A DNA stretch of 40,326 nucleotides from contig JAFGMI010000015.1 in the NCBI GenBank assembly GCA_016927595.1, positions 1-40,326 on the forward strand. Reading direction: 5' to 3'. Below the pieces are notes generated by a model. The model made no database searches. It saw nothing but the letters and a program-made list of their open reading frames with translations, and was not told the origin of the DNA. Shown one piece after another: positions 1,403-35,380 of the stretch (the first letter of the stretch is position 1; every line of letters starts with the position of its first letter). Both the position numbers and the translations under genes were made by a program. The stretch comes from Melioribacteraceae bacterium (GTDB taxonomy: Bacteria > Bacteroidota > Ignavibacteria > Ignavibacteriales > Melioribacteraceae).

Positions 1403-4189
1403 ATGAAATTTCCTTTAAAGCTTTTTGGTATTAACATTACCTTCGGTGCTGCTGCTGGAAAAGTATTTTTATTATCTGTTCTTCCGGTTGTTTTTTTTTC
1501 TGCCTGGCATTGCAAACAATTCTCATCAAATGAAAATTATAGTTTTATTCGTGATAGAATTTCAATCAACGATAACTGGCGTTTTTACAAATATGATACA
1601 ATGGAATTGCCGGATAACTTAATTTATGATGTACGTCCGCAGGTAGAAGAAAACTGGACATTCGGTGAGGCTGATGATAAACCCACTAAAGTTGAAGATA
1701 TTGAACCGGAACAACAAGTACTTAAACCATGGATTTTACAAACAGGAAATGATTTTATTAAAGATCCTGATAAACGTTATGAACGCCCGGAAGGCAACCC
1801 CGGAAATGAATTTCCATTTGTTCAAATAGGATTTGATGACAGCGATTGGCAATCTGTAAATTTACCGCACGACTGGGCAATAAACGGTCCTTTTTCTGAG
1901 GGACCCGATCCGGAAGTTGGCGGCGGAATGGGTCGTTTGCCAAGTCCCGGTGTAGCCTGGTACAGAAAAAAACTTGACATCCCTGAATCTGACGCAGGTA
2001 AAAAAATATTTCTCGATGTAGATGGTGCGATGTCGTATGCTATGGTCTGGCTCAATGGAAGCCTCGTTGGAGGCTGGCCCTATGGTTATTCGTCATGGCG
2101 TATCGACCTTACACCATACATCAGACCAGGCGGTCAGAATCAGCTTGCAATCCGTATGGATAATCCCAATTATTCATCCCGCTGGTATCCTGGTGGCGGG
2201 ATTTACAGGAACGTTTGGCTGGTAAAAACTAATCCCGTTCACGTAGGTCATTGGGGCACATTTATTACTACTGAAGAGGTATCGGAAAATTCTGCTAAGA
2301 TAAATATTGAAGTCACAATAGATAATGATTCAGAAAATGATGTTGCTGTTTTGGCAGTTGCACAAATATTTGAACTGGATTCTGAAGGGCAAAAAGCCGG
2401 TAAAGTGATTGCAGAGTTTGAACCGATTAATGCAAAGATCAAAACAAAGGAGAAAACTAAAGTTGAGGGTTCAGTAATTCTCGAAAATCCGAAATTATGG
2501 GGACCCCCGCCGACGCAGGTTCCTAATCGTTATGTAGCCATAACAACAATTTATCAGGATGAAAAACAAATCGATCAGTACGAAACTCCTTTCGGAATTC
2601 GTTCGCTTCAATTTGATCCGAATGCAGGTGTATATGTAAATGATGAGTTGGTCAAATTACAAGGCGTAAATATGCATCACGACCTTGGATCTTTGGGCGC
2701 TGCGTTCAATATGCGCGCCGCAGAACGACAACTCGAAATACTGAGAGAGATGGGTTGTAATGGAATCAGGACGGCACATAATCCGCCGGCTCCTGAGTTG
2801 TTGGAATTGACTGATAAGATGGGATTTCTGGTGATGGATGAAGCATTCGATGTCTGGGAAAGCAAGAAAACCCCGCATGACTATCATCTTATTTTCCCGG
2901 AGTGGCATGAACAGGATTTGCGTTCACTTATTCGCAGAGACAGGAATTGTCCGTCGGTTATTATATGGAGCTTCGGAAACGAAGTTGGTGAACAATATAC
3001 GGGTGAGGACGGGGCGTCTCTTGCCAAACATCTGAATGACATATGCAAAAATGAAGATCCAACCCGCCCTACTACCTGCGCAATGAACTGGGCTAAACCT
3101 TCGATGCCGTTTCCTGAATCAATGGATGTGATAAGTCTTAATTACCAGGGTCAGGGTATAAGGCAGGATCCGATGTTCGAAGGTACAAATCGTATACGAA
3201 CCAAACCGATGTATCCTGAATTTCATAAACGGTTTCCGGATAAAGTTGTGCTTAGCAGTGAAACTGCATCTGCTTTCAGCAGCAGGGGAATATATCTTTT
3301 TCCTGTCGTCGATAAGATAAGTGATGTAGTCCGCGACGGAAGAGGCGGCGATTCAAAGATTCAGCAGGTCAGTTCTTACGAGCTTCACGCAGTTGATTTC
3401 GGCTCTTCGGCTGATAAGGTGTTTAAATCAATTGAAATGAATCCTTACGTAGCCGGCGAGTTCGTTTGGACCGGTTGGGATTATCTGGGTGAACCCACTC
3501 CATATTACGGGGCAAGAAGTTCTTACTGCGGAATAATAGATCTTGCAGGTTTCAGGAAAGACCGCTTCTATCTGTACCAGGCACATTGGCGACCAGATTT
3601 TCCTATGGCGCATATATTACCCCACTGGAACTGGCAGGAAAGAACCGGAGAAATTACACCTGTGCATGTATTTACTTCGGGCGATGAAGCAGAGTTGTTT
3701 CTGAACGGTGAGTCACTCGGTAGAAAGAAAAAAGAAAAATCCGGTTACCGCCTGCGATGGGACGATGTGAAATATGAAGAAGGTGAATTAAAAGTTATTG
3801 CTTATAAAAACGGGAAAATATGGGCTGAAGATATTGTAAAGACAACGGGCAAGCCAGCCGGATTGGAATTATCCCCGGATCGAACAGAGATAAATGCCGA
3901 TGGCAGGGATTTATCTTTTATAACTCTAAAGGTAATTGACCTGAATGGATTTACCGTACCGACAGCAACCAATAAAATACAATTTGAGATAGAGGGACCG
4001 GGTGAAATAGTAGCTACAGATAACGGTGATCCGACAGATTTTGTTGAGTTTGATTCGCATTATAGAAAAGCATTTGGTGGATTGGCTCTGGTAACTGTGC
4101 GTTCGGTTAAAGACAATCGAGGAACAATTATTATCAAAGCAAATTCAGAGGGACTCAGAAAAGTAAAAGCAGTCGTTATAAGTAAATAA
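1403..4189 (+). CDS. GH2 family beta-galactosidase-like glycoside hydrolase
   Basis: 928 residues, a normal size for a GH2 enzyme with extra C-terminal domains. In order I see an N-terminal hydrophobic export segment (~20-35), a jelly-roll sugar-binding domain (~50-280, with NLPHDW and WYRKKL), an Ig-like domain, and a TIM barrel from ~400. IRTAHNPP, the acid/base Glu527 in SFGNEVGEQ and the nucleophile Glu620 in LSSETAS are intact. A DUF4982-like segment (~740-800) and a C-terminal Ig-like domain follow. The family is retaining; beta-galactosidase is most likely, but beta-glucuronidase or exo-activity on other beta-linked sugars is possible. Cys37 after the hydrophobic stretch is not in a good lipobox, so whether it is a lipoprotein is open. 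No clear Shine-Dalgarno precedes the ATG. The regulator starts 4 bp after the stop, so the two are probably cotranscribed. Confidence 0.93.
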   Translation: MKFPLKLFGINITFGAAAGKVFLLSVLPVVFFSAWHCKQFSSNENYSFIRDRISINDNWRFYKYDTMELPDNLIYDVRPQVEENWTFGEADDKPTKVEDIEPEQQVLKPWILQTGNDFIKDPDKRYERPEGNPGNEFPFVQIGFDDSDWQSVNLPHDWAINGPFSEGPDPEVGGGMGRLPSPGVAWYRKKLDIPESDAGKKIFLDVDGAMSYAMVWLNGSLVGGWPYGYSSWRIDLTPYIRPGGQNQLAIRMDNPNYSSRWYPGGGIYRNVWLVKTNPVHVGHWGTFITTEEVSENSAKINIEVTIDNDSENDVAVLAVAQIFELDSEGQKAGKVIAEFEPINAKIKTKEKTKVEGSVILENPKLWGPPPTQVPNRYVAITTIYQDEKQIDQYETPFGIRSLQFDPNAGVYVNDELVKLQGVNMHHDLGSLGAAFNMRAAERQLEILREMGCNGIRTAHNPPAPELLELTDKMGFLVMDEAFDVWESKKTPHDYHLIFPEWHEQDLRSLIRRDRNCPSVIIWSFGNEVGEQYTGEDGASLAKHLNDICKNEDPTRPTTCAMNWAKPSMPFPESMDVISLNYQGQGIRQDPMFEGTNRIRTKPMYPEFHKRFPDKVVLSSETASAFSSRGIYLFPVVDKISDVVRDGRGGDSKIQQVSSYELHAVDFGSSADKVFKSIEMNPYVAGEFVWTGWDYLGEPTPYYGARSSYCGIIDLAGFRKDRFYLYQAHWRPDFPMAHILPHWNWQERTGEITPVHVFTSGDEAELFLNGESLGRKKKEKSGYRLRWDDVKYEEGELKVIAYKNGKIWAEDIVKTTGKPAGLELSPDRTEINADGRDLSFITLKVIDLNGFTVPTATNKIQFEIEGPGEIVATDNGDPTDFVEFDSHYRKAFGGLALVTVRSVKDNRGTIIIKANSEGLRKVKAVVISK

Positions 4190-4193
4190 TGAT

Positions 4194-5333
4194 ATGAAAA
4201 AAATAATTCTTCTGTTAGAAACGTCACGCGCGTTCGGAAGACAATTAATTATTGGCATTGCGAAATATTCAAGGCTTAACGGTCCCTGGTCGTTTTATAA
4301 GGAACCGACTGATTTAAAATCTTCAGTTCCGCACCTTACGAGCTGGAAGCCTGACGGAATAATAATGCGTGATTCATTGATAACGAAGGAATTACTTAAA
4401 TTAAAAATTCCTACAATACTGGCTATACATCATTCCAAGTATCCCAGGGATTTACCCGTTATAAAAACAGACTCATACGCTATTGCAAAAATGGCTAGCG
4501 AACATCTTCTGGAAAAGGGGTTGAAGAATTTTGCTTTCTTCGGATCTGACAGATATGAATGGTCTAATGAACGCAAATTTTTTTTCCTGAATTTTATTAA
4601 TGATGCAGGTTTTAATGCCTCAGTTTATCTTCCTCCTAAAAAAGTAAAAAAAAATGACTGGGAAAAAGAGCAGCGGCACGTGAGTGAGTGGGTAAAGGAT
4701 CTTCCCAAACCCGTAGGGATATTTGCATGTAACGATGACAGGGGGCAGCATATACTGGAAGTCTGCAAACTCCTTAACTTAAGAGTACCGGAGGATGTTT
4801 CAGTAATCGGTGTTGATAATGATCCGATGATCTGCGAAATTGGAGACCCACCTCTAACGAGCATCGCACTTAATGTTGAGTCCGCCGGATATGAAGCTGC
4901 AAAATTAATGGATGAAATGATTAAGAATAAAAAAATAAGCGGCGAGCATATTCTGGTTTCACCAAGTCATGTTATTCAGCGGCAGTCTTCGGATGTACTT
5001 GCAGTGAATGATCCAAAAGTTTCACAGGCAATTTCTTATATAAAAAAAAATGCAAAGAATAAAATTCTTGTTAAAGATGTTGTGGAACACACCAACGTCA
5101 GCAGAAGAACACTCGAGCGAAAATTTAAGCAATCTATCCGAAGGTCCATTTACGGCGAGATAAGACGGGTACGCATCGAAATGATCTCCCAGATGCTTGT
5201 TGAAACTGATTTATCTATCTCACAAATTTCTTCTTATTTTAACTTCACCGATGTGGAGCATATATCCAGGTATTTTAAAATTGAAAAAGGCATAGGACTT
5301 AGGGAGTTTCGTAAGCTTAATCAGCCAAAATGA
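4194..5333 (+). CDS. XylR-like transcriptional regulator (PBP sensor + AraC HTH)
   Basis: 379 residues. Residues 1 to ~268 resemble the LacI/periplasmic-binding fold of sugar sensors (start MKKIILLLETSRAFGRQ, then PVGIFACNDDRGQ and VSVIGVDNDPMICE, typical ligand-pocket and hinge motifs). Residues ~270-379 are an AraC-type double helix-turn-helix (VSRRTLERKFK and ISQISSYFNFTDVEHISRYFK). This is the layout of E. coli XylR, which binds D-xylose and activates transcription. The ligand here is unknown; xylose or another released pentose fits the neighbouring enzymes. It follows the GH2 gene by 4 bp and precedes the TonB-dependent receptor, so it is the likely local regulator. It lacks the N-terminal DNA-binding helix of true LacI proteins. 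Confidence 0.92.
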   Translation: MKKIILLLETSRAFGRQLIIGIAKYSRLNGPWSFYKEPTDLKSSVPHLTSWKPDGIIMRDSLITKELLKLKIPTILAIHHSKYPRDLPVIKTDSYAIAKMASEHLLEKGLKNFAFFGSDRYEWSNERKFFFLNFINDAGFNASVYLPPKKVKKNDWEKEQRHVSEWVKDLPKPVGIFACNDDRGQHILEVCKLLNLRVPEDVSVIGVDNDPMICEIGDPPLTSIALNVESAGYEAAKLMDEMIKNKKISGEHILVSPSHVIQRQSSDVLAVNDPKVSQAISYIKKNAKNKILVKDVVEHTNVSRRTLERKFKQSIRRSIYGEIRRVRIEMISQMLVETDLSISQISSYFNFTDVEHISRYFKIEKGIGLREFRKLNQPK

Positions 5334-5650
5334 TGATTAAAATGTCGTAATATGGTTAATAATTGTATATAAGTGGCTGTTATTTATAATGATTCGTTTT
5401 TATTTTTTTTAGCGTATATTATTCTATGATTTCTTGCTTTAATTTAACTATTCCGGGGCGAAGTAAAATATTTTAATTATTATCATCTGTAATGTTTGCA
5501 TTAGATTGTTCGATTTATTGAAACGATTCAGAACTGATTGAATAGATTTAACATAATTTAAAACAAATAATTCGTTGAGTCACTATAGTCTACTATCATC
5601 ATTAAAAACAGGTTTGGTTTTTATCAAAAGAACCTAGGAGGAAGAAGAAA
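5334..5650 (+). promoter_or_regulatory. 317-bp leader upstream of the TonB-dependent receptor
   Basis: No gene is seen in this very AT-rich stretch. It is the natural place for the receptor's promoter and for regulator binding. An AGGAGG ribosome binding site at 5636-5641 sets the receptor start. A perfect 8-base palindrome ACTATAGT lies at 5582-5589, and GATTCA, GATTGA and GATTTA are spaced through 5525-5550. I cannot name a promoter with confidence. Confidence 0.4.
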
Positions 5651-8600
5651 ATGCATTCAGATATTTACTGCTTAAGAAAAAAAATAGTAATTTTTTTAAA
5701 CTTATTATTCTTTCTCGCTCTTCAGACGATCACATTTGCTCAATCAGGCTCGATGAGAGGGACAGTACTCGACATTACAACAGAGGACCCTTTATTCGGA
5801 GCTAACATAATAATCCAGGGAACAAGTCTGGGTGCTGCAACAAATTTCGACGGGAACTATGTTATCAGAAATATACCGGTGGGACAATATACAATAACTG
5901 TCTCTTACATAGGATATGGGAAAGTTACAACAGAGGTTACCATTTCAGAAAACAGAACTTTGGAGCAGAATTTTAATCTCCAGTCCATCACTATTGAGGG
6001 AGAAGCTGTAGTAGTAACCGCTCAGGCTCTAGGACAGAAGCAGGCAATAAACCAGCAGCTTTCATCTAATACAATTACAAACGTTGTTTCTTCCGAAAAG
6101 ATAAGAGAATTACCGGACGCCGATGCTGCAACCGCATTAAGCCGTTTGCCAGGGCTTTCGCTAATGAATGGCGACCAGGTAGTTATAAGAGGTGTTCAGG
6201 CAAAGCAGAATCTTGTTCTTGTGAACGGTATTCAGCTCCCGTCAACGGACGTAAATACCCGTGCTACTAATCTGGGATTTATATCGGCAAACATGCTCGC
6301 TGGTATTGAAGTTGTTAAAGTACTCACTCCTGATATGGATGCAAATGCTATCGGAGGAATAGTTAATTTAAGATTGCGTGAAGCTCCTTCCGGATTTCAT
6401 TTCGATGTACTTTCACAGGGAAGTTTAAACTACCAGGATAGAACCCTGGGTAACTACAGGTTCTGGGCTAGTGCGAGTCAGAGGTTCTTAGATGACAAAC
6501 TGGGTGTGTTCCTTCAGGGAAATGCAGATCGTTTTGACGGCGGCGGTGACAGAACTTCAGCTGCTTATGAAAGATACGAGCCGTTGCCCTACGGTGAGGC
6601 TCCGTATCGTATGAACAATTTTACATTGAACGATCAGCAGAATATAACCTCAACATACGGCGGTAGTTTATTGTTGGATTATAAACTCCCTGACGGCAAA
6701 ATAATGCTGCAGAATACTATTTCAGAAGGTGTTAATGATTTGGCAACACACAATACTCAATTGGATCTTCAGAACAACAGAGTTATATATTCATTAAACA
6801 GGGACAAATATGACAGAACATTAATTGCCAACGCGCTTCAGATGGAATATAATTTCGGCGATATTAAAGGAGAATTAATTTTATCCCATTCGGCTAGTGA
6901 TCGTAACACAGATATTCGGTACGGCGACCCGGGAGATAATACAAATTTTTCGAATGCTGCAGGTGCTCCTTTCGGTTATGATGACGACGGTAATAAAATT
7001 TCCTACGCGAATTTAAGAAATAATATTACGCCATCAGAAGTATTAGATATTGAAATTGACGAGGAAGACTATAAAGGTGCTGATATTTCTGACTGGGCGG
7101 TGATCCGCGAGGTGGCTTTTAAACAGCATATATATAATGCTCAGCTCGATTTTTCAATACCGTTCTCATTTTCGAAGGACTTTACATCAATATTTAAAGT
7201 CGGCGGAAAATTTAAACGAACTACCCGTGAAAATGATCTGAATCGATGGTATAAAAGGACCGGCGATGAGGATTTCTATGCCAATGTCAGAAACTTTATC
7301 CCGGGTAAAATCCTGACTAATCAGAATCAGCTTCTCTTTACTGATATTCAGAATACCGATTATGACAGAGGACAATATTACCTGAATGAAACTTATGATT
7401 TCAAATATGCATTTGATATCGACAGACTGGACGATTTTTATACTCAAGCCCGATCCGGCTGGGGTCAGGCGGTTCATAAGGACGGAACATTGACAGAAGA
7501 TTTTAGCGGATCTGAAATGTTTTCAGGGGCTTACCTGATGGGTACTTTCAACATCGGTCCCAGAATTTCTTTAATACTCGGTGGACGGTATGAACACTAT
7601 AATATGGATTATACTGCAACCAATTTTTATGTAACTCATCCTGTTGACGGTAACGGCAGAGAATTGGATACCTTGAACAGTGTTAACCGGGATGATGATA
7701 CATTCTTCCCCAATGTTCAGCTTCGTTATAAATTTACAGACTGGTCAGATATAAGGGTAGCCTACACCCAGACAATTTCACGTCCCGATTACCAGGCTAT
7801 TCTTCCTAATACTTATTTTTCTCCGGGTTTGACCAACCGGGCAGGAAATCCAAAATTAAAACCTGCGATTTCAACAAACCTTGACGTTTACCTTTCATTT
7901 TATAACAATGAAATAGGTTTATTTACTGTTGGTGGATTCTATAAAGAAATCCAGGATGTATTTTATCAGACACCTATATTTTACCGGAACCTGTCGTATT
8001 TTAACGTTTCATTCCCGGATTCGGCATTCTGGAGATCGCAGGTTACTTCGTCCAGTCCGAATGGAATCACACCACCTGCTCCTTCTGACCGCGTAACAAC
8101 TTATATAAATAACCCTGATCCGGCAAAAATAAAAGGTTTGGAAATTGACTGGCAAACTAACTTCTGGTACTTACCGGAGCCTTTGAATTCACTGGTTTTT
8201 AATATAAACTATACAAGAGTCTGGTCCGAAATGGATTATCAGCAACTAAGAAATGAGGTAATACGCGAACAATATATCGATCCGGTTACGGGCAGAATAA
8301 AATTCAGGGAAACTTACTTAACCACTGATACCGTACGGACTGCCAGACTGCTCAACCAGGGAAACGATATTTTAAATATTGCTCTCGGTGTTGATTATAA
8401 AGGATTCTCAGGACGTATTTCGTTCAATATGCAGGGAAATGTAATCTATTCTGTCGGAGTACGACCTGAAGATGATCAGTTTACCGGAAATATTTATAAA
8501 TGGGATTTTACTCTGAAACAGGAATTACCATGGGAAGGATTAAGTGTGTCTCTTAGTGGAATAAATATTTTCCACAATGCTACGAAAACTTATAGGAAAT

Positions 8601-8695
8601 TCCGCAGAGTTGTTGACGGTCCTATTTCCGATCATGAATTATCGACCGCATATTATCCGAGAATATTCGAACTGAATTTAAGATATATGTTATAA
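5651..8695 (+). CDS. TonB-dependent outer-membrane receptor
   Basis: 1014 residues. A signal peptide (to about residue 31, ending TITFAQ) is followed by a carboxypeptidase-D-like regulatory domain (~35-115, with GTVLDITTEDPLFGANI and FDGNYVIRNIPVGQY). Next come a plug (~140-250: LPDADAATALSRLPGL, VVIRGVQAKQNLVLVNG and ANAIGGIVNLRLR) and a long 22-strand-type barrel rich in alternating aromatic residues. The plug motifs resemble the TonB receptor subfamily seen for oligosaccharide uptake in Xanthomonas/Caulobacter as much as classic SusC. It should import oligosaccharides using TonB energy. The start is well supported by AGGAGG 9 bp upstream. It ends LRYML rather than in a C-terminal aromatic residue. 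No SusD gene is next to it; a T9SS beta-helix protein follows 113 bp later. Confidence 0.95.
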   Translation: MHSDIYCLRKKIVIFLNLLFFLALQTITFAQSGSMRGTVLDITTEDPLFGANIIIQGTSLGAATNFDGNYVIRNIPVGQYTITVSYIGYGKVTTEVTISENRTLEQNFNLQSITIEGEAVVVTAQALGQKQAINQQLSSNTITNVVSSEKIRELPDADAATALSRLPGLSLMNGDQVVIRGVQAKQNLVLVNGIQLPSTDVNTRATNLGFISANMLAGIEVVKVLTPDMDANAIGGIVNLRLREAPSGFHFDVLSQGSLNYQDRTLGNYRFWASASQRFLDDKLGVFLQGNADRFDGGGDRTSAAYERYEPLPYGEAPYRMNNFTLNDQQNITSTYGGSLLLDYKLPDGKIMLQNTISEGVNDLATHNTQLDLQNNRVIYSLNRDKYDRTLIANALQMEYNFGDIKGELILSHSASDRNTDIRYGDPGDNTNFSNAAGAPFGYDDDGNKISYANLRNNITPSEVLDIEIDEEDYKGADISDWAVIREVAFKQHIYNAQLDFSIPFSFSKDFTSIFKVGGKFKRTTRENDLNRWYKRTGDEDFYANVRNFIPGKILTNQNQLLFTDIQNTDYDRGQYYLNETYDFKYAFDIDRLDDFYTQARSGWGQAVHKDGTLTEDFSGSEMFSGAYLMGTFNIGPRISLILGGRYEHYNMDYTATNFYVTHPVDGNGRELDTLNSVNRDDDTFFPNVQLRYKFTDWSDIRVAYTQTISRPDYQAILPNTYFSPGLTNRAGNPKLKPAISTNLDVYLSFYNNEIGLFTVGGFYKEIQDVFYQTPIFYRNLSYFNVSFPDSAFWRSQVTSSSPNGITPPAPSDRVTTYINNPDPAKIKGLEIDWQTNFWYLPEPLNSLVFNINYTRVWSEMDYQQLRNEVIREQYIDPVTGRIKFRETYLTTDTVRTARLLNQGNDILNIALGVDYKGFSGRISFNMQGNVIYSVGVRPEDDQFTGNIYKWDFTLKQELPWEGLSVSLSGINIFHNATKTYRKFRRVVDGPISDHELSTAYYPRIFELNLRYML

Positions 8696-8740
8696 TGACA
8701 TCAACTATTTTATTTAATAATATAGGAGAATTATTCTTGA

Positions 8741-8750
8741 TAATAACCAG
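8741..8750 (+). promoter_or_regulatory. 10-mer shared by the leaders of the two beta-helix genes
   Basis: TAATAACCAG occurs here, 59 bp upstream of the beta-helix start at 8809, and again at 22008-22017, just upstream of its paralog. It may be a shared regulatory element or inherited from duplication. The sequence is AT-rich and short, so chance is possible. Confidence 0.25.
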
Positions 8751-8808
8751 ATCATTAAAGGGTTCACTTTAACTAAAAGTATTACAATTTAATTTAAGGA
8801 GATTTAAC

Positions 8809-10569
8809 ATGAGAAAAATTTTATTACCTTTTTTACTCCTTTTACTTATACCATTGTCAGCTTCATTTGCCCAGGGATTAATGGATTATGTTAAAGAGGT
8901 AAAAGGCGATACCCTTGTTGTTAAAGATTATGTTGATATGAATTTCCAGGCTAACTCTATTAATAGCGTTATTCTGGAAGATGCAAACGCACCTGCAGGA
9001 CGCGTTTATGAACTACAGGTTAACGGATGGTATCCCCAGTCTGCTGGCGTTACTACACCTTCGGACAGACCTGTTGTAATTGCCGGTGCTGATGATGATA
9101 TTCTGGTCAACAGAGAAGCAGCACCGCCTATTATTTCCGGTTATTCGGATGAAGGCGGATCCAGCCCCGGCGGTATTACCTGGGGGAACGATCTGACCGT
9201 GAAAAACTCCAGTGTTATATGCGGTGCCCCTGATGGTTCATACGGCTGGGCATTTTTCGGTTCCGGCGCTGCTGACAGAAAGGTTGTTTTTGAAAATAAT
9301 ATGATGGAACATAACTGGTGGGTATTTATTCAATCAAACGCACATTCAGGGAACAGTTTCTGGTTTAAGGATAATTATTTTGTAAATATGAGCGGACGTG
9401 CCTGCAGACGTAACGGCGGTGTATATGATAATGTTGATAATAATACAGATACCATGTATATCGAAAACAATACGCATGTTATGGCTCAGGGCTACATTTA
9501 CAAATTCAGGAACTACCCGATCAGTTTCATCTACATTAATCATAACACATTTATTAATTGTGCAAGTGTTGTTCTTGAAACCCAGGGAGTTCAGAGTAAT
9601 AACATCATAACAAACAACATTTTTGTTAACAGCAATATACAGCCATTCAGACCCAATATGACTGAAGATCTTTCCGAGCAGGCTATCGATGGACAACCGC
9701 AAGGTCTGATTGATGTTGCCGTATTGCCTGCAAGCATGGACCAGGTTGACAGAAAGTGGCTGGTTGAAGCGAATGTTGCCTACTGGGATCCACAAGTATC
9801 CGATTTGGGTACTGAAGCAAATACATTGGCAATTAATGGTTTTACTACCTGGGTAAACCAGTCAATGAAAATGAATGAAAGAACCAAAGCTTTGTTCGAT
9901 GATGATACGAACTATCCATACCTTACCGAGGGTAAATGGTACGACCAATTGCCGAGTTTTACGGATCCGCAAGATCTGTTAACTGATCAGGTCGAAGTAT
10001 TAAAAGAATTCTGCCTCGGGACTATCGATACTACAAGTACAAACGTAATGCCTTACTGGAGAGTATCAAGCGTAGGTGATGAAAACTTCGTTTATTCAGA
10101 CTGGCCGATTCCTGTTGATCTTTCATACAGCGATGCTGAATTACTGACCGGCGGAACCGATGGTTTACCGGTTGGAGACCTGAACTGGTTCCCGTCGGAA
10201 AAAGCTACGTTTAATGCCAATAAAGCAGAATATTATGCAGCACTGGTAGATGCATGGGAAAACGGACATACTGTAACCGCAGTTGAAGAATTAGGCGGCT
10301 TGCCTACAGAATTTGAATTATCGCAAAACTATCCTAATCCGTTCAACCCGACAACTACTATAAACTTTTCACTCCCCGAAGCATCAAATATCAGTCTGAA
10401 AGTTTATAATGCATTGGGTCAGGAAGTTGCTACTCTTGTTAACGGTTTTAGAACTGCGCAAAGTTATGAAGTTTCATTCGATGCTTCACATCTTGCAAGT
10501 GGTGTCTATGTGTATACATTGCAGGGCGATAATTACAGCCTTTCAAAGAAAATGATACTAATGAAATAG
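8809..10569 (+). CDS. secreted beta-helix-like protein with T9SS sorting domain, copy 1
   Basis: 586 residues. A clear signal peptide (ends SASFAQ) is followed by a mature start LMDYVKEVKGDTLVVKDYVDM. The centre (~100-290) has Asn-rich repeating strands such as FKDNYFVNM, MYIENNTHVMAQG, YINHNTFINCA and ITNNIFVN, the look of a right-handed parallel beta-helix as in pectate-lyase-like proteins. A PVGDLNWFP motif precedes the C-terminal T9SS type A domain (NYPNPFNPTTT to SKKMILMK). I cannot point to catalytic residues, so it may be a lyase, a glycoside hydrolase or a surface glycan-binding protein. AAGGAG precedes the ATG. It follows the TonB-dependent receptor and ends at a terminator, so the two probably form one unit. 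A full-length paralog starts at 22028. Confidence 0.85.
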   Translation: MRKILLPFLLLLLIPLSASFAQGLMDYVKEVKGDTLVVKDYVDMNFQANSINSVILEDANAPAGRVYELQVNGWYPQSAGVTTPSDRPVVIAGADDDILVNREAAPPIISGYSDEGGSSPGGITWGNDLTVKNSSVICGAPDGSYGWAFFGSGAADRKVVFENNMMEHNWWVFIQSNAHSGNSFWFKDNYFVNMSGRACRRNGGVYDNVDNNTDTMYIENNTHVMAQGYIYKFRNYPISFIYINHNTFINCASVVLETQGVQSNNIITNNIFVNSNIQPFRPNMTEDLSEQAIDGQPQGLIDVAVLPASMDQVDRKWLVEANVAYWDPQVSDLGTEANTLAINGFTTWVNQSMKMNERTKALFDDDTNYPYLTEGKWYDQLPSFTDPQDLLTDQVEVLKEFCLGTIDTTSTNVMPYWRVSSVGDENFVYSDWPIPVDLSYSDAELLTGGTDGLPVGDLNWFPSEKATFNANKAEYYAALVDAWENGHTVTAVEELGGLPTEFELSQNYPNPFNPTTTINFSLPEASNISLKVYNALGQEVATLVNGFRTAQSYEVSFDASHLASGVYVYTLQGDNYSLSKKMILMK

Positions 10570-10592
10570 TTAGATTTCATTTTTGTGATATT

Positions 10593-10624
10593 AAAACCCC
10601 GACAGTTATTTTGCCGGGGTTTTG
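10593..10624 (+). terminator. rho-independent terminator after beta-helix copy 1
   Basis: AAAACCCCG (10593-10601) pairs with CGGGGTTTT (10615-10623) around a 13-base loop, and the 3' arm ends in a T run. It closes the receptor/beta-helix unit before the unrelated gene at 10767. Confidence 0.85.
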
Positions 10625-10766
10625 TTTATATACGTGAATAAAATGATTACCTTAAAATTATCGCATTTATATTTAAAGTCGAAAAATATAAATTGTCTAT
10701 CAGGATTGAATAGCATAGAATTTTGCGAATCAGTAAAATAATTATCTTATCTGCAGGAGAAATCAG

Positions 10767-12512
10767 ATGAACATACCCAGATTTCAGGTTCTGTTATTTG
10801 CATTATTAGTTTTATTTATCAGCAGCGGATGCGAATCCGGTAAATTTCCGGATAGCAATATTGTAGCCAGGTATGATAACAACTACTACGTTACGGTTGA
10901 CGAGTTGAACAAATATGTTCAGGAATGGCTTTACTATAAAAAATTTCTCGATAGATCGGATGTTTATAATAATGCTTTAAACGATATGCTCGTCAATCAA
11001 TTTAAACGAATGGATTTTTTTGAAAAAGGATTGGATAAGGATACAAATCTGGTGCAAAAAATAAACCGTGTAATAAACGAAGAACTGGTTGCCGAATATT
11101 TTGAATCTCAGTATCTGGGTAAATATGCCAATGAAGAGTATGCTAAAAAGGCATACGGAATTATGAACAGAGAAGTTGTTTACCAATTAATTGCTTTAAA
11201 TAAACCGGAAAACAGTTCTCAACAGCAGCTTGATTCGCTTAAAGAAAAAGCCCTGGCAATTAAAGCGGAAATAGATAACGGTGCGGATTTTAGTTCTTTA
11301 GTACAGATGTATTCTCAGAACAAAACTTCTTTAATGAATAGTGGTTATATGCCTCCGATTGATTGGAAGCAGAGCATTTCAAATCCGGTGGTTGGTGTGA
11401 TTTTCGATCTTAACAAAAATGATGTCCGCGTTCTGAACGCGATTAATGCGTTCTTAATCGTAAAGATTGCTGATATAAATGAAATTCATGTCGAACCGTA
11501 TGATTTGATTAAAGATAAAATTATATCGGACCTTAAAACAGCATATGCTAATACTAGCCTTGATGAATATGAAAAAGACAAGAAAGCACTGATAGATGAA
11601 AATAGTCTGAAATGGAATGAAGAAGCTTTAAAACAGATTGTAAAATGGTCAAAGGTTCGGAATTTTTATTCAGGAGAATACAGGGATACTTTTGCAGATG
11701 CTATTGAAAAAGGAGAGAATAAAATTATATTAACTTATAATGGCGGTATCCTTGATTACAGAGAACTATTAAGATTATTGAACAATATTTTAATATTGGC
11801 AGAATCTGAAAATATAGATGATAATGATATTAAAAAGTATATTCTTGAAGCGATACGTACCGATCTTATTGTGAAAAAAGCAGATTCGCTTGATCTAAAA
11901 AAGAATATATTTAATGCTTTCACGACTAATTCAACACTGAGGAATCAGATAGTGTACCTGTACAATCAAGCTGAGGTTGAAGCGAAAATTCCTGCAGCAA
12001 CTGATGAAGCACTGCAAAGATTTTTTAAGGCAAATGAAAGTACTATGTACTATCAGCTGGAGAAAAGAAATATATTCGTGATGGTCTTTCCTTCAAAAAC
12101 TGATGCTGAAAAAGTATCTGCAGAAATTAATAACGGGACATCTTTTGAAGATGTTACTGGTAAGTATCTTGTCAAAACTTATATAAAAGAGCGTGACGGT
12201 GAAATTAAATCCTATCTCAGCAATGAAGAACCAACATTCGGCGAATTAGCATTCGAAATGGATGAAAGTGAAGTTTCAGGTCCTATAGAATTTAAGGATG
12301 AAAATGATAAGACTAAATACGCCATAATAAAATGTTACCATATCCGCCAGGAGAAACAGCTGACATTTAATGAAGTGAAAGACTCAATAAAAGAAGATTT
12401 TAGTAACTACCACAGAAAAATAATAGAAAAGGAAGTGGAAGATAAATTAAAAAGTAAATATCATCCGGAAATAAATGACGAAGTTTTAGCAAAGATTATA
12501 TCTCCTCAGTAA
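10767..12512 (+). CDS. parvulin-type peptidyl-prolyl isomerase lipoprotein
   Basis: 581 residues. The N-terminal signal ends in the lipobox SSGC with Cys22, so it should be lipid-anchored outside the inner membrane. Two parvulin-like stretches can be seen: ~135-240 (VVYQLIALNKP, then IDNGADFSSLVQMYSQN and SGYMPPIDW) and ~425-517 (IFVMVFPSKTDAEKVSAEINNG, then GEIKSYLSNEEP). Helical regions between and after them fit a SurA/PrsA-like chaperone. The role would be folding of exported or outer-membrane proteins; no specific client is shown. AGGAGA precedes the ATG. It has its own leader after a terminator, so it starts a new unit, followed at 129 bp by the SGNH protein. The second PPIase domain is the weaker match. 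Confidence 0.82.
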   Translation: MNIPRFQVLLFALLVLFISSGCESGKFPDSNIVARYDNNYYVTVDELNKYVQEWLYYKKFLDRSDVYNNALNDMLVNQFKRMDFFEKGLDKDTNLVQKINRVINEELVAEYFESQYLGKYANEEYAKKAYGIMNREVVYQLIALNKPENSSQQQLDSLKEKALAIKAEIDNGADFSSLVQMYSQNKTSLMNSGYMPPIDWKQSISNPVVGVIFDLNKNDVRVLNAINAFLIVKIADINEIHVEPYDLIKDKIISDLKTAYANTSLDEYEKDKKALIDENSLKWNEEALKQIVKWSKVRNFYSGEYRDTFADAIEKGENKIILTYNGGILDYRELLRLLNNILILAESENIDDNDIKKYILEAIRTDLIVKKADSLDLKKNIFNAFTTNSTLRNQIVYLYNQAEVEAKIPAATDEALQRFFKANESTMYYQLEKRNIFVMVFPSKTDAEKVSAEINNGTSFEDVTGKYLVKTYIKERDGEIKSYLSNEEPTFGELAFEMDESEVSGPIEFKDENDKTKYAIIKCYHIRQEKQLTFNEVKDSIKEDFSNYHRKIIEKEVEDKLKSKYHPEINDEVLAKIISPQ

Positions 12513-12573: not shown

Positions 12574-12641
12574 TTAAAAAATTCATATAGGAAAAACTCA
12601 GAATAATCTTTCTGTAATTGTTAATCATTCAGAGATGTATT

Positions 12642-14585
12642 TTGAAAATTACAAATGAAAAAAAGAAACAGATAGTAGCCGATAAAGATCAGCTATCCGT
12701 AAATCAAATTTCCCAAAAATACAATATACCGCTCGTTGAAATAAAAAAAATTATTAATGCCTCAGAAAAAAAAACACCGAAATGGTTTTATACAGTATTG
12801 ATATTATTTCCTATTCTTTTTTTAGTCGGACTGGAAACCTTTTTAAGTTCTATTGATTATGGATATAACTTAGACCAATGGGTTGATGCGGGGCAGGGGA
12901 AATATATAATAAATCCTGAGATCGGAAGGAGATATTTTACCAGCGGAGATTTTAATCCTAATACGATTGAAGACGTCTTCGACCAGCGTAAGTCAGCTAA
13001 TTCTTTCAGAGTCTTTGTGTTGGGCGGAAGCAGTGCACAAGGATTTCCGTTTAATCCTATGGGATCGTTTTCCCGATATATCCGGAAGAGACTTGAATTG
13101 GTTTACCCGGCGACTAAAACCGAGGTTATAAATATAAGTATGACTGCGGTGAATTCTTACACTATACTTGATTTATTACCGGGCGTACTGGAGCAGGAAC
13201 CCGATGTGATTTTAATTTATGCGGGACATAATGAATACTATGGAGCGTTGGGTGTAGGTTCGATGGAATCTTATGGTTCATCACGCTTCCTGGTTAAATT
13301 AGTGTTATTCCTGAATAAATTTAAAACAACTCAATTAGTACGCAACTCAATTAAGTGGGCTTCTTCATTATTCGCAGCTGAAAATAATAAGCATTCCGGT
13401 ACGCTGATGTCGAGAATGGCGAAGGATAAATATATAATATTAAATACAGAGGAGTTTAATGCAGGGGTTCGACAATTTAAGGAAAACCTAAAGGATATTT
13501 TAGGTTTGATCAAAGGTAAGGAGGTACCTGTAATATTGGGAAGGCTGGTAAGCAATTTAAAAGATCAGAAACCTTTTGTCTCAGTCGGAACGCCTGGTTA
13601 CAGGACAGCAGAGGAAGTATATGAAGAAGCCAAATATGAGTTTGAGAATAATAATTTTTCAAAAGCAGATTCTCTGTTCAGACAGGCTAAGGAACTTGAT
13701 GCACTAAGGTTCAGGGCACCCGAAAAAATCAATAGTATTATTGATGAACTTGGGAAAGAGTCCGGCACAGCAATTGTCCCCATCGACTCAATATTTAATT
13801 CCGCAAGCCCTTGTAAAATTGTAGGGGATAACCTGATTGCAGACCATCTGCATCCGAACGTAGAGGGGTACCAACTTATTGGTAAAGCATTTTACGAGCG
13901 AATGGAGAAACTGGGATATCTTCCCCGGACGGAGAAGCCGGCAATACCGCTTGACGAGCAGGATAGCCTGACTCGTGTCAATTTTGTATTTACCAAACTC
14001 GATTCCGTTATGGGTGCTTATTTTGTTGACTTATTAAAGTCAGATTACCCGTATAAAAAAGAGAAAGCAGCAATATCAAAATTTCAGCAAAGAGATTTTG
14101 TCAAATTATTTAAGCCGGATAATTTTATTGATTCGCTGGCTATGATTAGAATAGAAAATAAAATATCATGGGTTGATGCTCATTTGATTGCTGCAACATA
14201 TTATTTGAGAAGAGACGATATAAAAGAGTATTTAAATTATATGAATGTATTAATATACCAGTATCCAGGTCTGAAAGATCTTGATGGCGCTCTTAAATAT
14301 TTTTACGAGCAAAAGAAAATAAACCTGGCAGATTATACACCGAAAAGAAATGGGATTATGGCGTTGTATATCGGAAATTTCGACAATGCAATCAGACATT
14401 TGACCCAGGCTTATAATTCAAATCCTGAGGATCCGTCACTACTGTATAATCTCTCGTTAGCTTATACTGGAAAGAATGACTTTGATAGTGCTCTTTCATT
14501 AATTAATAAATGCTTAATAGCTGATCCGGATTATCCGGATGCGGAAAATTTAAAACAACGGATATTAAAAGAAGTGGATAATTGA
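12642..14585 (+). CDS. membrane-anchored SGNH hydrolase with HTH-like N-terminus and TPR tail
   Basis: The frame is open from a TTG at 12618, but I prefer the TTG at 12642 (protein start KITNEKKKQ), which has a weak AGAG site upstream; this gives 647 residues. Residues ~15-40 (LSVNQISQKYNIPLVEIKKII) look like a helix-turn-helix. One transmembrane helix follows (~47-65). The SGNH domain has GGSSAQG with Ser130 as likely nucleophile, YAGHNEYYG as the block III Gly/Asn region, and DHLHPN with Asp401 and His404. The C-terminal ~100 residues contain TPR repeats (IRHLTQAYNSNPEDPSLLYNLSLAYTGKNDFDSAL). SGNH enzymes are esterases, lipases or O-acyl transferases; the substrate here is unknown. The domain order places the HTH in the cytoplasm and the enzyme outside. 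Confidence 0.83.
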   Translation: MKITNEKKKQIVADKDQLSVNQISQKYNIPLVEIKKIINASEKKTPKWFYTVLILFPILFLVGLETFLSSIDYGYNLDQWVDAGQGKYIINPEIGRRYFTSGDFNPNTIEDVFDQRKSANSFRVFVLGGSSAQGFPFNPMGSFSRYIRKRLELVYPATKTEVINISMTAVNSYTILDLLPGVLEQEPDVILIYAGHNEYYGALGVGSMESYGSSRFLVKLVLFLNKFKTTQLVRNSIKWASSLFAAENNKHSGTLMSRMAKDKYIILNTEEFNAGVRQFKENLKDILGLIKGKEVPVILGRLVSNLKDQKPFVSVGTPGYRTAEEVYEEAKYEFENNNFSKADSLFRQAKELDALRFRAPEKINSIIDELGKESGTAIVPIDSIFNSASPCKIVGDNLIADHLHPNVEGYQLIGKAFYERMEKLGYLPRTEKPAIPLDEQDSLTRVNFVFTKLDSVMGAYFVDLLKSDYPYKKEKAAISKFQQRDFVKLFKPDNFIDSLAMIRIENKISWVDAHLIAATYYLRRDDIKEYLNYMNVLIYQYPGLKDLDGALKYFYEQKKINLADYTPKRNGIMALYIGNFDNAIRHLTQAYNSNPEDPSLLYNLSLAYTGKNDFDSALSLINKCLIADPDYPDAENLKQRILKEVDN

Positions 14586-14665
14586 TTCTGTATCTTAAAA
14601 TATTGCATGTGATTTTGCAGATATTTCATACCGATATATTTTATTAAAATAGCTCAACTTTAATT

Positions 14666-17002
14666 ATGCATAATAAAAAAATAGTATATCTGAATGTTGC
14701 TGTAGTGTCTGTTTCGGTAGTATGTTTTGAAATTATTTCGACACGTATCTCCTCTGTTATTTTTGTAAGCAATTTTGCCTTTATAATATTATCACTTGCC
14801 ATACTTGGTCTCGGCTGCGGAGCAGTTTATTCCTATTACAGGATTCCTGCAGATAAATCAAATGCCACAATTCAATTTTTATCTAAATCGCTTATATCAT
14901 TAGCACTGTCATATTTAGTTTTTATAATTTTGATTACCGGTCTGGAATTTGCAGCAAATCCTTTTATCTATTTCTTTTTGCTTTTTATTCCGTTTTTTAC
15001 TGCAGGTGTATTTTATTCGTTGGTATTCAGGATCTACTCCGCGCTCAGTTTTAAAATATATGCTGCTGACCTCATTGGGGCTGCTATAGGATCAGTCGGA
15101 TCGATAATATTATTAAGTTTTTCGGGTGCTGCAAACGCTGTATTATTATTGACTGTTTTTATTCTTGCTCTTTTTATTTTATTAAAAAAGGATGCTATAA
15201 AAAAATCGATTCAGATTATATCTTATTCCATTCTCGCGATGTTGGTTCTTTTTATTTCATCTAATGGCGACCGGAGTCTACTGGGCAAAATTCCTATCGG
15301 ACAATATCCGGAAAAAGATTTCTACCATGTATACGAAAATGTAAGCACTGAATCAGAAATTATTGAGAGCAGGTGGAGCGTTTACGGCAGATCGGATTTA
15401 GTTGAATACAGTCACCAGAATGTTGTAAAACAACTTTTTATTGATGGCGCTGCCGGTACTCAAATGTACAGCTTCAATGGCAGTTTAACTGATCCCGGGG
15501 AATTGCTGCTTAATTTATTGTACAGGAATTCGAGTGCAGTACCATTCCTGTATCTTAATGAGAGTCAGAAGAACAGGATGCTGGTGATAGGTCCCGGAGG
15601 AGGAAAGGAGGTGTTGACCGGATTACTTGCAGGAGTGGATAATATAACCGGAGTTGAAGTAAATCCTGACTTTGTTGAAATCGTTAAAGATTACAAAAAT
15701 TATAATGGTGGTATTTATACGGAGTTTCCGAATATTAAAATTGTAATCGATGAAGGGAGACACTATGCAAAAAAATCTGAGGACAAATATGATATTATCC
15801 AGATGGTGCTTCCCTCTACCGAGCAAATTCAAAATATAGATAATATAGCTGCCAACGAAAATTTTCTCCTTACCGTTGAGGCTCTGAAAGATTATTTGAA
15901 TATTCTTACAAACGAAGGGCAACTGATTTTAACGCTGCACAATGACTGGGAAATAAGCAGATTGATAACTACCGCTTTTTCAGCGTTCGAAGAACTTGGG
16001 ATTCAGCCAAAAGAAACGGTAAAGCATCTTATGATTTACGAATCAGATTATGCACCGACAATCATAATTAAGAGAAAAAAATTTTCGGAATATGAACTGT
16101 TCACTGTCAGAAATTCACTTGAATCTTTACCAAGCGGCTTCCCGAAGGCAACATTTTATCCGGATCTGTCGAATAATACGAGTTCCAGAATAAATAATAT
16201 GCTTTCAGCAATTGCTGACGGTAAAACTACAGTTGATGAGATTATTGAAAAGGATGAGTATAATTTAAAACCGTGCCGCGATGACAGTCCTTATTTCTAC
16301 AATATAAACAGAGGAATACCTGGATATATTCTCTACTTATTTTTGGCTGTGGCGGGAATGAATATTGCGTTAATATTTTACCCGCTGGCACAAATAAAAA
16401 GGAAGATTGCTAAAACCGAATTTATGATGGTCATTAACCCACTTATTATTTTTTGTGCAATCGGTTTGGGATTTATGATAATAGAAATTTCAATTTTTCA
16501 AAAGCTGATACTGTTCATCGGTTCGCCGACGATCGCACTTTCAATACTTCTCGGCTCGATTTTAATCGGTATGGGAATTGGTAGTATGCTTGGCAAAGAA
16601 TTTATTAAAGAGAATGTAATCAAAAGAATTTATTCGGCAGGTTTGGCTATAATTTTGGTCGGAATAATGATATTTTTCATTTATCCGTTTTTACTTGAAT
16701 ATTTTATCACACTTAACCTGTTCTACAAAATAATTATCTGCTTATTATTGATGATGCCGCTGGGAGCTTTCGCGGGCATTCCTTTTCCCTCAGCAATTCA
16801 ATTGTTGAGAGAATCTGATCTGAATACGTACATTCCATGGATGTACGGATTAAACGGTACATTTTCGGTACTCGGATCAGTTTCTGCAGTTGTAATATCA
16901 TTAGTTTATGGATTTAAAATTGCTTTTTTTTTCGGATTAAGTATTTACCTGGTTCTTTCTGTTTATCTGTTTCTCAAAAGTAAAGAAAATACAGCGAATT
17001 AA
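14666..17002 (+). CDS. polytopic membrane protein with spermidine-synthase-like domain
   Basis: 778 residues: about seven N-terminal transmembrane helices (~5-200), a soluble SAM-binding-fold domain (~200-540), then about six more helices (~545-775). The SAM-type glycine motif is GPGGGKE (Gly309-Gly313), followed by ITGVEVNPDFVEIV. In true spermidine synthases the next strand carries a catalytic Asp after the YDVI motif; here it reads YDIIQMVLPST, with no Asp in that place, so aminopropyl transfer is doubtful. This belongs to the large, mostly uncharacterised group of membrane-fused spermidine-synthase-like proteins. It follows the SGNH gene by 80 bp and may form a unit with it and the parvulin lipoprotein. 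No clear Shine-Dalgarno is present. Confidence 0.8.
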   Translation: MHNKKIVYLNVAVVSVSVVCFEIISTRISSVIFVSNFAFIILSLAILGLGCGAVYSYYRIPADKSNATIQFLSKSLISLALSYLVFIILITGLEFAANPFIYFFLLFIPFFTAGVFYSLVFRIYSALSFKIYAADLIGAAIGSVGSIILLSFSGAANAVLLLTVFILALFILLKKDAIKKSIQIISYSILAMLVLFISSNGDRSLLGKIPIGQYPEKDFYHVYENVSTESEIIESRWSVYGRSDLVEYSHQNVVKQLFIDGAAGTQMYSFNGSLTDPGELLLNLLYRNSSAVPFLYLNESQKNRMLVIGPGGGKEVLTGLLAGVDNITGVEVNPDFVEIVKDYKNYNGGIYTEFPNIKIVIDEGRHYAKKSEDKYDIIQMVLPSTEQIQNIDNIAANENFLLTVEALKDYLNILTNEGQLILTLHNDWEISRLITTAFSAFEELGIQPKETVKHLMIYESDYAPTIIIKRKKFSEYELFTVRNSLESLPSGFPKATFYPDLSNNTSSRINNMLSAIADGKTTVDEIIEKDEYNLKPCRDDSPYFYNINRGIPGYILYLFLAVAGMNIALIFYPLAQIKRKIAKTEFMMVINPLIIFCAIGLGFMIIEISIFQKLILFIGSPTIALSILLGSILIGMGIGSMLGKEFIKENVIKRIYSAGLAIILVGIMIFFIYPFLLEYFITLNLFYKIIICLLLMMPLGAFAGIPFPSAIQLLRESDLNTYIPWMYGLNGTFSVLGSVSAVVISLVYGFKIAFFFGLSIYLVLSVYLFLKSKENTAN

Positions 17003-17484
17003 ACGGATAAGATATTTTTAATCCAGTACGACTTAATTACGATTTATGAAGAGTATTTTATTGAAAATGTTAATCCGGGAGTTGATTGTTCTGATTGAAT
17101 ATATTGTTAATGCAAGACGGGGTACATGACGCAAAGAGGTTAAATAGTTTTGTAAAGTGGCTTCTATTTTACCTTTTACATTATTATCATTAAATATAGC
17201 AGCATAATGTATAACTCGATTTAATTTCCAGCTTTTCATGAATCATATTTTTTAAAATATTCTCTTAGATAAGAATAAACAAGAAATTTTGTGTCTCTTC
17301 CATGATACAAATAACTAAATATTATTTTGAAATACTAAAGAGCTTCTCTTTCTCAGATATCATCAATGATTAATCAAAGTAACTTTCTTTCAATCGGACC
17401 GCAGGGGGAAATTCTGTTCTTTATATCATTTCGGATTGATAAATAATAAATGAATCAATTTTCACATAGCAATTATATATTAAA
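17003..17484. other. 482-bp intergenic region before the GH127 gene
   Basis: No convincing gene. A minus-strand frame at 17033-17239 (68 codons, start MKSWKLNRVIHYAAI) matches nothing I recognise and has no ribosome binding site I trust; it could be a decayed gene. The rest is AT-rich, except a short G-run near 17401-17409, and probably holds the promoter of the long hydrolase run. I see no terminator with a T tract after the membrane protein. Confidence 0.5.
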
Positions 17485-21978: not shown

Positions 21979-22028
21979 TGTTATTCAATTGTCAATAACC
22001 ACTGTTTTAATAACCAGGGAGGTTATTA
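21979..22028 (+). promoter_or_regulatory. RNA stem overlapping the ribosome binding site of beta-helix copy 2
   Basis: TAATAACC (22008-22015) pairs perfectly with GGTTATTA (22021-22028) around an AGGGA loop. The stem covers the end of the Shine-Dalgarno AGGGAGG (22016-22022) and the A of the ATG at 22028. An upstream GTTATT (21979-21984) and AATAACC (21994-22000) offer alternative partners, so two exclusive folds can be drawn. This could regulate translation, but the AT-rich stems are weak. Confidence 0.35.
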
Positions 22029-26091: not shown

Positions 26092-26092
26092 T

Positions 26093-27412: not shown

Positions 27413-27498
27413 TGTTCATTCTTTATTCAGCTTAGATTCATCGGATGTTCATTTGAAAACAGGCAAAATTATTGTGACCGATATCTCCGGGAGACAAT

Positions 27499-28695: not shown

Positions 28696-28752
28696 TACAG
28701 GTATCAGACAGTTGTTAACTTAATCTATATTGTGAATACACGGAGTTGTTTC

Positions 28753-30102: not shown

Positions 30103-30125
30103 ATAACAATCAATAATAGTATTAA

Positions 30126-31256: not shown

Positions 31257-31289
31257 GATAAACCGGATAAGTTTTGAATACTAACTTAA

Positions 31290-32459
<1,170 letters not shown>

Positions 32460-32506
32460 AGTAGCATTATCAGAAAAATTATTAATCTCTTTTTTCGGGA
32501 AATACT

Positions 32507-35275: not shown

Positions 35276-35380
35276 TAATTGATTTAATTGCTCAGATAAA
35301 AATAGAATTGCCTCTGTATGTTTTCGGATAAATAGTGAAGATAGTAGAGAGCTTTATAAACATGATAAGGTAGAAGAATT

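Follow-up and report, generated by a model that had tools for sequence, protein, structure and literature searches.

In Bacteroidota, loci for glycan uptake are commonly identified through the SusC/SusD gene pair, in which a TonB-dependent receptor with an N-terminal CarboxypepD_reg-like domain lies next to the gene of an extracellular partner within a glycan-degradation locus. In the BtuBG importers of vitamin B12, a non-SusC TonB receptor has a dedicated extracellular partner other than SusD, which caps it as a lid (PMC10404256, in its accessible text). In the carbohydrate utilization (CUT) loci of Xanthomonas and Caulobacter, sugar-importing receptors are accompanied by a regulator and degrading enzymes with no SusD, and those of Xanthomonas work without one; the accessible text describes no gene for a beta-helix partner with the tail of a type IX secretion system (T9SS) (PMC1790865). 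Here we describe a receptor gene (5651-8695) and its neighbour (8809-10569), whose product we call BHX, in a stretch of 40,326 nucleotides, hereafter the window, from a Melioribacteraceae bacterium (GCA_016927595.1, contig JAFGMI010000015.1; genome of 3.85 Mb, completeness 99.8%). Receptor and BHX are a conserved, co-inherited pair, which may serve glycan uptake. Loci are labelled L and genomes G, G000 being the genome of the window and C19 the window's own contig.

The receptor is encoded on the forward strand and has 1014 residues, with an N-terminal CarbopepD_reg_2 (CarboxypepD_reg-like) domain, a plug (PF07715) and a barrel (PF00593) identified from its open reading frame (ORF) with NCBIfam and Pfam models. 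Scoring 333.5 bits against a cut-off of 310, it belongs to the TIGR01782 (Xanthomonas-Caulobacter) class of TonB-dependent receptors, in which we presume the CUT receptors also to fall, going by the name of the model. The SusC model TIGR04056 (OMP_RagA_SusC), in contrast, gives 59.7 bits against a cut-off of 368.25 and matches the N-terminal part only, and the idea of a SusC without its SusD, suggested by an earlier sequence-only reading of this DNA, is not borne out. A degraded SusCD locus was also considered and rejected, on the grounds that the receptor falls short of the SusC model and that the genome yielded no SusD. One SusC-like receptor is encoded elsewhere in the same genome (G000:C38:41950-44667), reaching 375.6 bits with TIGR04056 only when neighbouring in-frame matches are summed.

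BHX follows 113 bases further on the same strand and comprises 586 amino acids: a hydrophobic, signal-like N-terminus, a predicted right-handed beta-helix, a conserved C-terminal motif (DWPIPVDLSYS...GLPVGDLNWFP) and a T9SS type A sorting domain at residues 508-586 (10330-10566, forward strand). TIGR04183 matches residues 508-583 of this tail with 48.3 bits against a cut-off of 23, and the same genome encodes SprA of the T9SS (SprA_N, 184.7 bits), marking BHX as predicted T9SS cargo. Cargo of type A may end up anchored or released, and the hold at the surface that the sequence-only reading proposed is one of these two possibilities. As no cysteine occurs among the first 40 residues, BHX carries no lipobox. 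It thus differs from the partner in SusCD importers in being no lipoprotein, in lacking a SusD domain, and in its predicted beta-helix and T9SS tail. It differs likewise from BtuG, a lipoprotein of a system with a vitamin ligand (PMC10404256, accessible text): BHX is T9SS cargo with a predicted beta-helix, occurs in glycan loci, and might or might not cap its receptor.

To see how general the pair is, we searched 296 genomes of the window's phylum with a profile built from 20 BHX proteins with their T9SS tails removed (E ≤ 1e-10), which matched 39 genomes. Up to five candidates per genome were scored, giving 100 listed matches, and lower-ranked genes are outside the counts. Three of these were dropped as second halves of listed genes (G008:C1:2837982, G196:C174:15977 and G019:C27:40588), leaving 97, of which 59 lie directly behind listed TIGR01782 receptors and 38 were judged on locus DNA (29 with a receptor directly upstream, seven with none, one at a contig end and one the second half of a gene). 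With G074:C6:257816 (second half of a gene already counted as linked) and G116:C20:99918 (contig end) excluded, 88 of the 95 testable listed BHX genes lie directly downstream of a TonB receptor. Homologues of the two genes are thus usually neighbours, whereas rare adjacency would have refuted the sequence-only proposal. Inspection of the loci brought up six further BHX genes: L153 and L154 each contribute one from a second pair, and the others are in L180, L181, L241 and L244. Seen from the receptor's side, for which up to three TIGR01782 candidates per genome were scored and lower-ranked genes again left uncounted, 65 of 79 listed receptors above the cut-off adjoin BHX; two lie at contig ends, one is followed by a second receptor with BHX, and 11 have no BHX. 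These 79 are the 78 listed matches in the 39 BHX genomes plus G000:C51, whereas matches in G070 and G120, neither of them matched by the BHX profile, were left out. Three of the four receptors above the cut-off in the window's own genome adjoin BHX, while the remaining one lies where its contig ends. Among the fetched loci, BHX comes next after 95 of 126 listed receptors, and 91 of those 95 BHX proteins have a T9SS tail. In L146, a receptor split over two reading frames (15519-18661) precedes an intact BHX, and two more BHX copies occur in that locus. An earlier scan of contigs used a profile in which the T9SS tail had been kept in the alignment, and because of this its 80 loci matched mostly through the tail alone; L062, L063 and L064 are usable as pairs, on a Caldithrix contig and two Ignavibacteriota contigs, and L065 and L105 are partial matches only.

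The two genes are also inherited together. Across 92 receptor-BHX pairs from 41 genomes or contigs, the spacing ranges from -10 to 362 bases (median 68.5), and the distances in the receptor and BHX trees are correlated with a Pearson coefficient of 0.849 and a Spearman coefficient of 0.64, where 2000 permutations reach 0.08 at most. When partners were shuffled only within the 21 genomes having at least two pairs, none of 2000 permutations reached the observed correlation, with a maximum of 0.45. Clusters in the two trees agree as well (adjusted Rand index 0.87 with ten clusters, 0.55 with six). A chance neighbourhood was accordingly rejected, given both the adjacency in 88 of 95 cases and the matching trees. 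A receptor profile built from the paired receptors separates the clades with and without BHX at 650 bits with one exception (G014:C31), a split that is clean partly by construction, since paired receptors made up the profile.

The fold of BHX is less firmly placed. Residues 1-504 have no Pfam match even at E ≤ 10, and NCBIfam returns no enzyme family, only T9SS-cargo models matching the tail. A structure model built from five sequences is of modest confidence (mean predicted local distance difference test score, pLDDT, 55.9; predicted template modelling score 0.61) and shows short strands in a beta-helix rhythm over model residues 45-260, corresponding to protein residues 66-281. Searching the PDB with this model, Foldseek gave no match at E ≤ 0.001, and the best sub-threshold matches include a polysaccharide lyase, an iota-carrageenase and T9SS tail domains. 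With VIA-align, the best Z score (21.7) was to the second helix of an alginate lyase of polysaccharide lyase family 6 (PL6), and Z scores of 14-19 were obtained with other PL6 enzymes, pectate lyases, phage (tailspike) depolymerases and the adhesin PfbA. Eight of the 20 BHX members, the window's protein not among them, match PF13229 at E ≤ 1. The beta-helix is thus a prediction drawn from a model of modest confidence and from relatives matching PF13229. The sequence-only reading had described a receptor followed by an Asn-rich, beta-helix-like protein with a T9SS tail; both ORFs, the tail and the Asn content (9.2% over residues 23-500) stand, and the helix does so as a prediction. Among 92 BHX sequences, the best-conserved positions are Asn ladders, glycines and aromatics, together with D214, H245, D58 and D457.

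SusD is absent from the 21 window ORFs scanned with Pfam, the last ORF (39305-40324) being outside that scan, and the whole genome yields none by PF07980, PF14322, PF12771 or PF12741. The sequence-only reading was therefore right that no SusD lies in the window, and a SusD gene just outside it, which would have undermined the proposal, is not found by these four models. Taken as a SusD-independent uptake pair in general, the proposal fares less well, for although the window's own genome is free of SusD, its absence is no rule: 19 of the 39 BHX genomes have a PF07980 match and 20 have none. Genomes without a match make up 17 of 20 in the window's class (its own included) and 3 of 19 in the rest of the phylum, indicating that the pair without SusD is the rule only near the window and that the two coexist elsewhere. 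Among the positions compared, the closest SusD to a BHX is 6.7 kb away (G179), and in G008 the nearest is 13.5 kb from BHX.

In the loci examined, the pair often has glycan-degrading genes around it, and the subtypes seem to go with different glycans. In the window's subtype, the gene immediately upstream of the receptor encodes a T9SS xylanase of glycoside hydrolase (GH) family GH10 in four of eight loci (L051, L052, L053 and L056), and in the other four a XylR-like regulator (the window), an aldose 1-epimerase (L045), an SSF transporter (L055) or a protein without a Pfam match (L049). All seven loci of this subtype that reach far enough (L049 ends first) have a PPIC-type prolyl isomerase (PPIase) as the next gene after BHX; the copies in L045, L051, L052, L053, L055 and L056 are 25-54% identical to that of the window, and the enzyme may help to fold or assemble the pair. 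A long BHX type of about 850 aa has a carbohydrate-binding module (CBM) of family CBM35 above the Pfam cut-off in six of eight proteins scanned (not in L060 or L142), and all three of its loci that were checked (L057, L058 and L142) have GH130 and GlcNAc_2-epimerase-type genes nearby. A GH94 gene lies nearby in the long-type locus L042 of the window's own genome, and with these neighbours beta-mannan or cello-oligosaccharides are indicated for the long type. Neighbours are otherwise varied, with ROK regulators on the receptor's side in 14 of 73 pairs and SSF transporters behind BHX in 8 of 76.

One of these loci has a counterpart in a described system. In L056, from G008, the order is GH43/CBM6, T9SS GH10 with two CBM4 modules, receptor, BHX and PPIase, which is the order of Rmar_1068-1072 in the xylan locus of Rhodothermus marinus, and by this gene order the two are probably the same species. 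In the accessible text on that locus (Rmar_1068-1073), Rmar_1071, at the position of BHX, has a sorting domain but is labelled a 'hypothetical protein', with no function stated and nothing that ties it to a general receptor-partner pair; the next 'hypothetical' gene is the PPIase here, and the locus also includes a SusCD pair, Rmar_1077/1078 (PMC6987092). A literature search limited to PubMed Central (PMC) found no title or abstract describing the receptor-BHX pair, the nearest being this xylan locus (PMC6987092, accessible text). Since sugar receptors free of SusD are already known (PMC1790865, accessible text), what is new here is the helix partner with its T9SS tail.

Our preferred reading is that the receptor and BHX form a co-inherited pair for glycan uptake, with BHX binding the glycan on the receptor's behalf, and we assign this a probability of roughly 0.55. 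A glycan-binding partner is held most likely by analogy with SusCD and BtuBG, in both of which an extracellular partner caps the receptor. BHX would cross the outer membrane through the T9SS, fold as a right-handed beta-helix and bind the target glycan, which for the window's subtype would be xylan or xylo-oligosaccharides; at the cell surface it would then pass the glycan on to the receptor, taking the part that SusD plays for SusC, and the receptor would import the oligosaccharide with TonB energy. BHX could dock as a lid or only sit near the receptor. The capture of glycans by BHX, as put forward in the sequence-only reading, is partly supported: the glycan context of GH10, CBM35 and GH130/epimerase genes is strong, and the idea of a SusC lacking its SusD falls away.

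Several observations weigh against this reading. The fold model is weak, as its mean pLDDT indicates, the nearest solved folds are mostly lyases and hydrolases, and the conservation of D214, H245, D58 and D457 makes catalysis by BHX possible. Tight linkage without contact would also yield matching trees. A PF07980 match occurs in 16 of the 19 BHX genomes outside the window's class, so the pair is not confined to SusD-free genomes, and the R. marinus xylan locus also holds its SusCD pair further down (PMC6987092, accessible text). One of the 11 listed receptors without BHX, G014:C31, truly contradicts the pattern, as its score with the receptor profile (934 bits) is like those of the BHX clade; G059, a genome of the same genus, has no BHX match. 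Seven of the 95 listed BHX genes have no adjoining receptor, though three of the seven lie in a locus with a complete pair. One is the window's second copy and two are a tandem in G191 with a complete pair nearby; the other four are G255:C21, G116:C2, G224:C4 and G074:C11, of which G255:C21 and G116:C2 lack the T9SS tail and G074:C11 is a weak match. Homologues with neither a receptor neighbour nor a T9SS tail, as in L148:6932-8404 and L150:7357-8907, are possibly a different use of the same helix.

BHX could instead be an enzyme, at the surface or released: a lyase, hydrolase or epimerase of the beta-helix type, trimming the glycan for import by the receptor, in which case the genes would be linked because product and importer must match. 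Such a role would suit a predicted right-handed beta-helix, a fold typical of polysaccharide lyases and hydrolases, and the best Z score, to the PL6 alginate lyase; but the best PL6 matches fall on residues 425 and up of two-helix enzymes, that is, in the second helix, which we take to be the non-catalytic one. D214, H245, D58 and D457 are kept in 82-91% of the 92 sequences, and E219, H245, R315 and D457 in at least 94% of the 31 closest members, where they could form an active site, whereas no Lys or Arg is conserved above 57% over the 92 members, and beta-helix lyases use Lys or Arg as the base. Some other TIGR01782 receptors do adjoin genes of secreted enzymes such as phytases. No convincing Pfam enzyme family is found for BHX, however, single members giving weak matches only (E of 0.03 or worse), and several loci already hold separate degrading enzymes (GH10, GH43 and GH130). 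We regard an enzymatic role as the second most likely reading.

Still less probable, in our view, is that BHX acts as an independent surface adhesin or glycan-binding scaffold holding the cell on its substrate, with no receptor contact or delivery and co-inherited because it serves the same glycan as the receptor. The pneumococcal surface adhesin PfbA is among the nearest folds (Z 17.1), CBM35 occurs in some BHX members, and extra copies exist without a receptor of their own (at 22028 in the window and in tandem in G191), all of which would fit a scaffold. Yet one close BHX per receptor, with matching trees even among the paralogues of one genome, goes beyond what a common substrate would seem to require, and the T9SS GH10 enzymes adjoin the receptor in only half of the eight loci of the window's subtype.

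A secreted partner behind TIGR01782 receptors may be a wider theme, as judged from ten chosen genes behind receptors without BHX that were scanned for domains. Two of them encode T9SS leucine-rich-repeat proteins (L178:3290-5608 and L179:10350-12641) and one a T9SS beta-propeller (L234:6599-7909), beta-propeller being also the fold of BtuG; the other seven are two phytases, two purple-acid-type phosphatases, a sulfatase, a tyrosine phosphatase and an FGE/BNR protein. We tentatively suggest that BHX founds a third class of dedicated TonB-receptor partners, delivered by the T9SS, after the SusD and BtuG lipoproteins. Clades of TIGR01782 receptors could then have recruited different solenoid or propeller folds (beta-helix, leucine-rich repeats and beta-propeller), giving a SusD-free glycan uptake that in the window's class might mostly replace SusD.

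Within the window, where the features named below at 1403-12512, 22028-23854 and 28732-36913 are on the forward strand, the receptor is preceded directly by the XylR-like regulator (4194-5333; PBP1_XylR N-terminal domain, Peripla_BP_3 and AraC-type HTH) and, further upstream, by a GH2 beta-galactosidase of the GalB type (1403-4189). The two-gene unit is closed by an intrinsic terminator-like hairpin at 10592-10624, recognised by RNA folding, which ends in a T-rich stretch; the minimum free energy of 10580-10632 is -17 kcal/mol (z -4.24, with none of 200 shuffles as good), in agreement with the terminator that had been noted after BHX. A simple terminator scanner did not list this hairpin, probably because of its long loop. 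Downstream follow the PPIC-type peptidyl-prolyl isomerase, with a lipoprotein-like N-terminus (10767-12512), and at 12618-17002 a GDSL/TPR protein and a weakly spermidine-synthase-like protein. In L045 (1381-5665), a GDSL/TPR protein and a protein with an N-terminus similar to the window's occur in the same order; L051 (2587-4926) has the second of these proteins alone. The spermidine-synthase-like neighbour lacks any Pfam match in L045, and its match in L051 is below the cut-off. The second BHX homologue (22028-23854; 44% identity, PF13229 match, T9SS tail), absent from the sequence-only reading, sits between a GH95 gene and a DUF362 gene without an adjoining receptor. Glycan-degrading genes are found at 28732-36913 (two GH43, one with CBM6, an esterase, a GH3 with PA14 and an arabinofuranosidase with Alpha-L-AF_C), and the window also holds a GH127 gene. 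More T9SS-tailed proteins are encoded at 24028-28695 and 36954-38093: a DUF362 protein with FlgD_ig, a regulator-type propeller, an SGL/gluconolactonase-like protein and a CBM9 protein. As for the parts of a CUT locus, the regulator and enzymes are present and no sugar transporter is found among the 21 scanned ORFs, though the locus may run past the window.

If the pair does the job of SusC/SusD, SusD-free loci of Ignavibacteria and related classes are at present overlooked or misinterpreted, and the T9SS would gain a role in nutrient import beyond the delivery of enzymes. The receptor-BHX pair provides a new sequence marker for uptake loci, with subtypes that seem to track the glycan (xylan or mannan), and the xylan locus of R. 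marinus, where the pair appears to be present, offers a testable model. The pair may represent an overlooked way of catching plant sugars.

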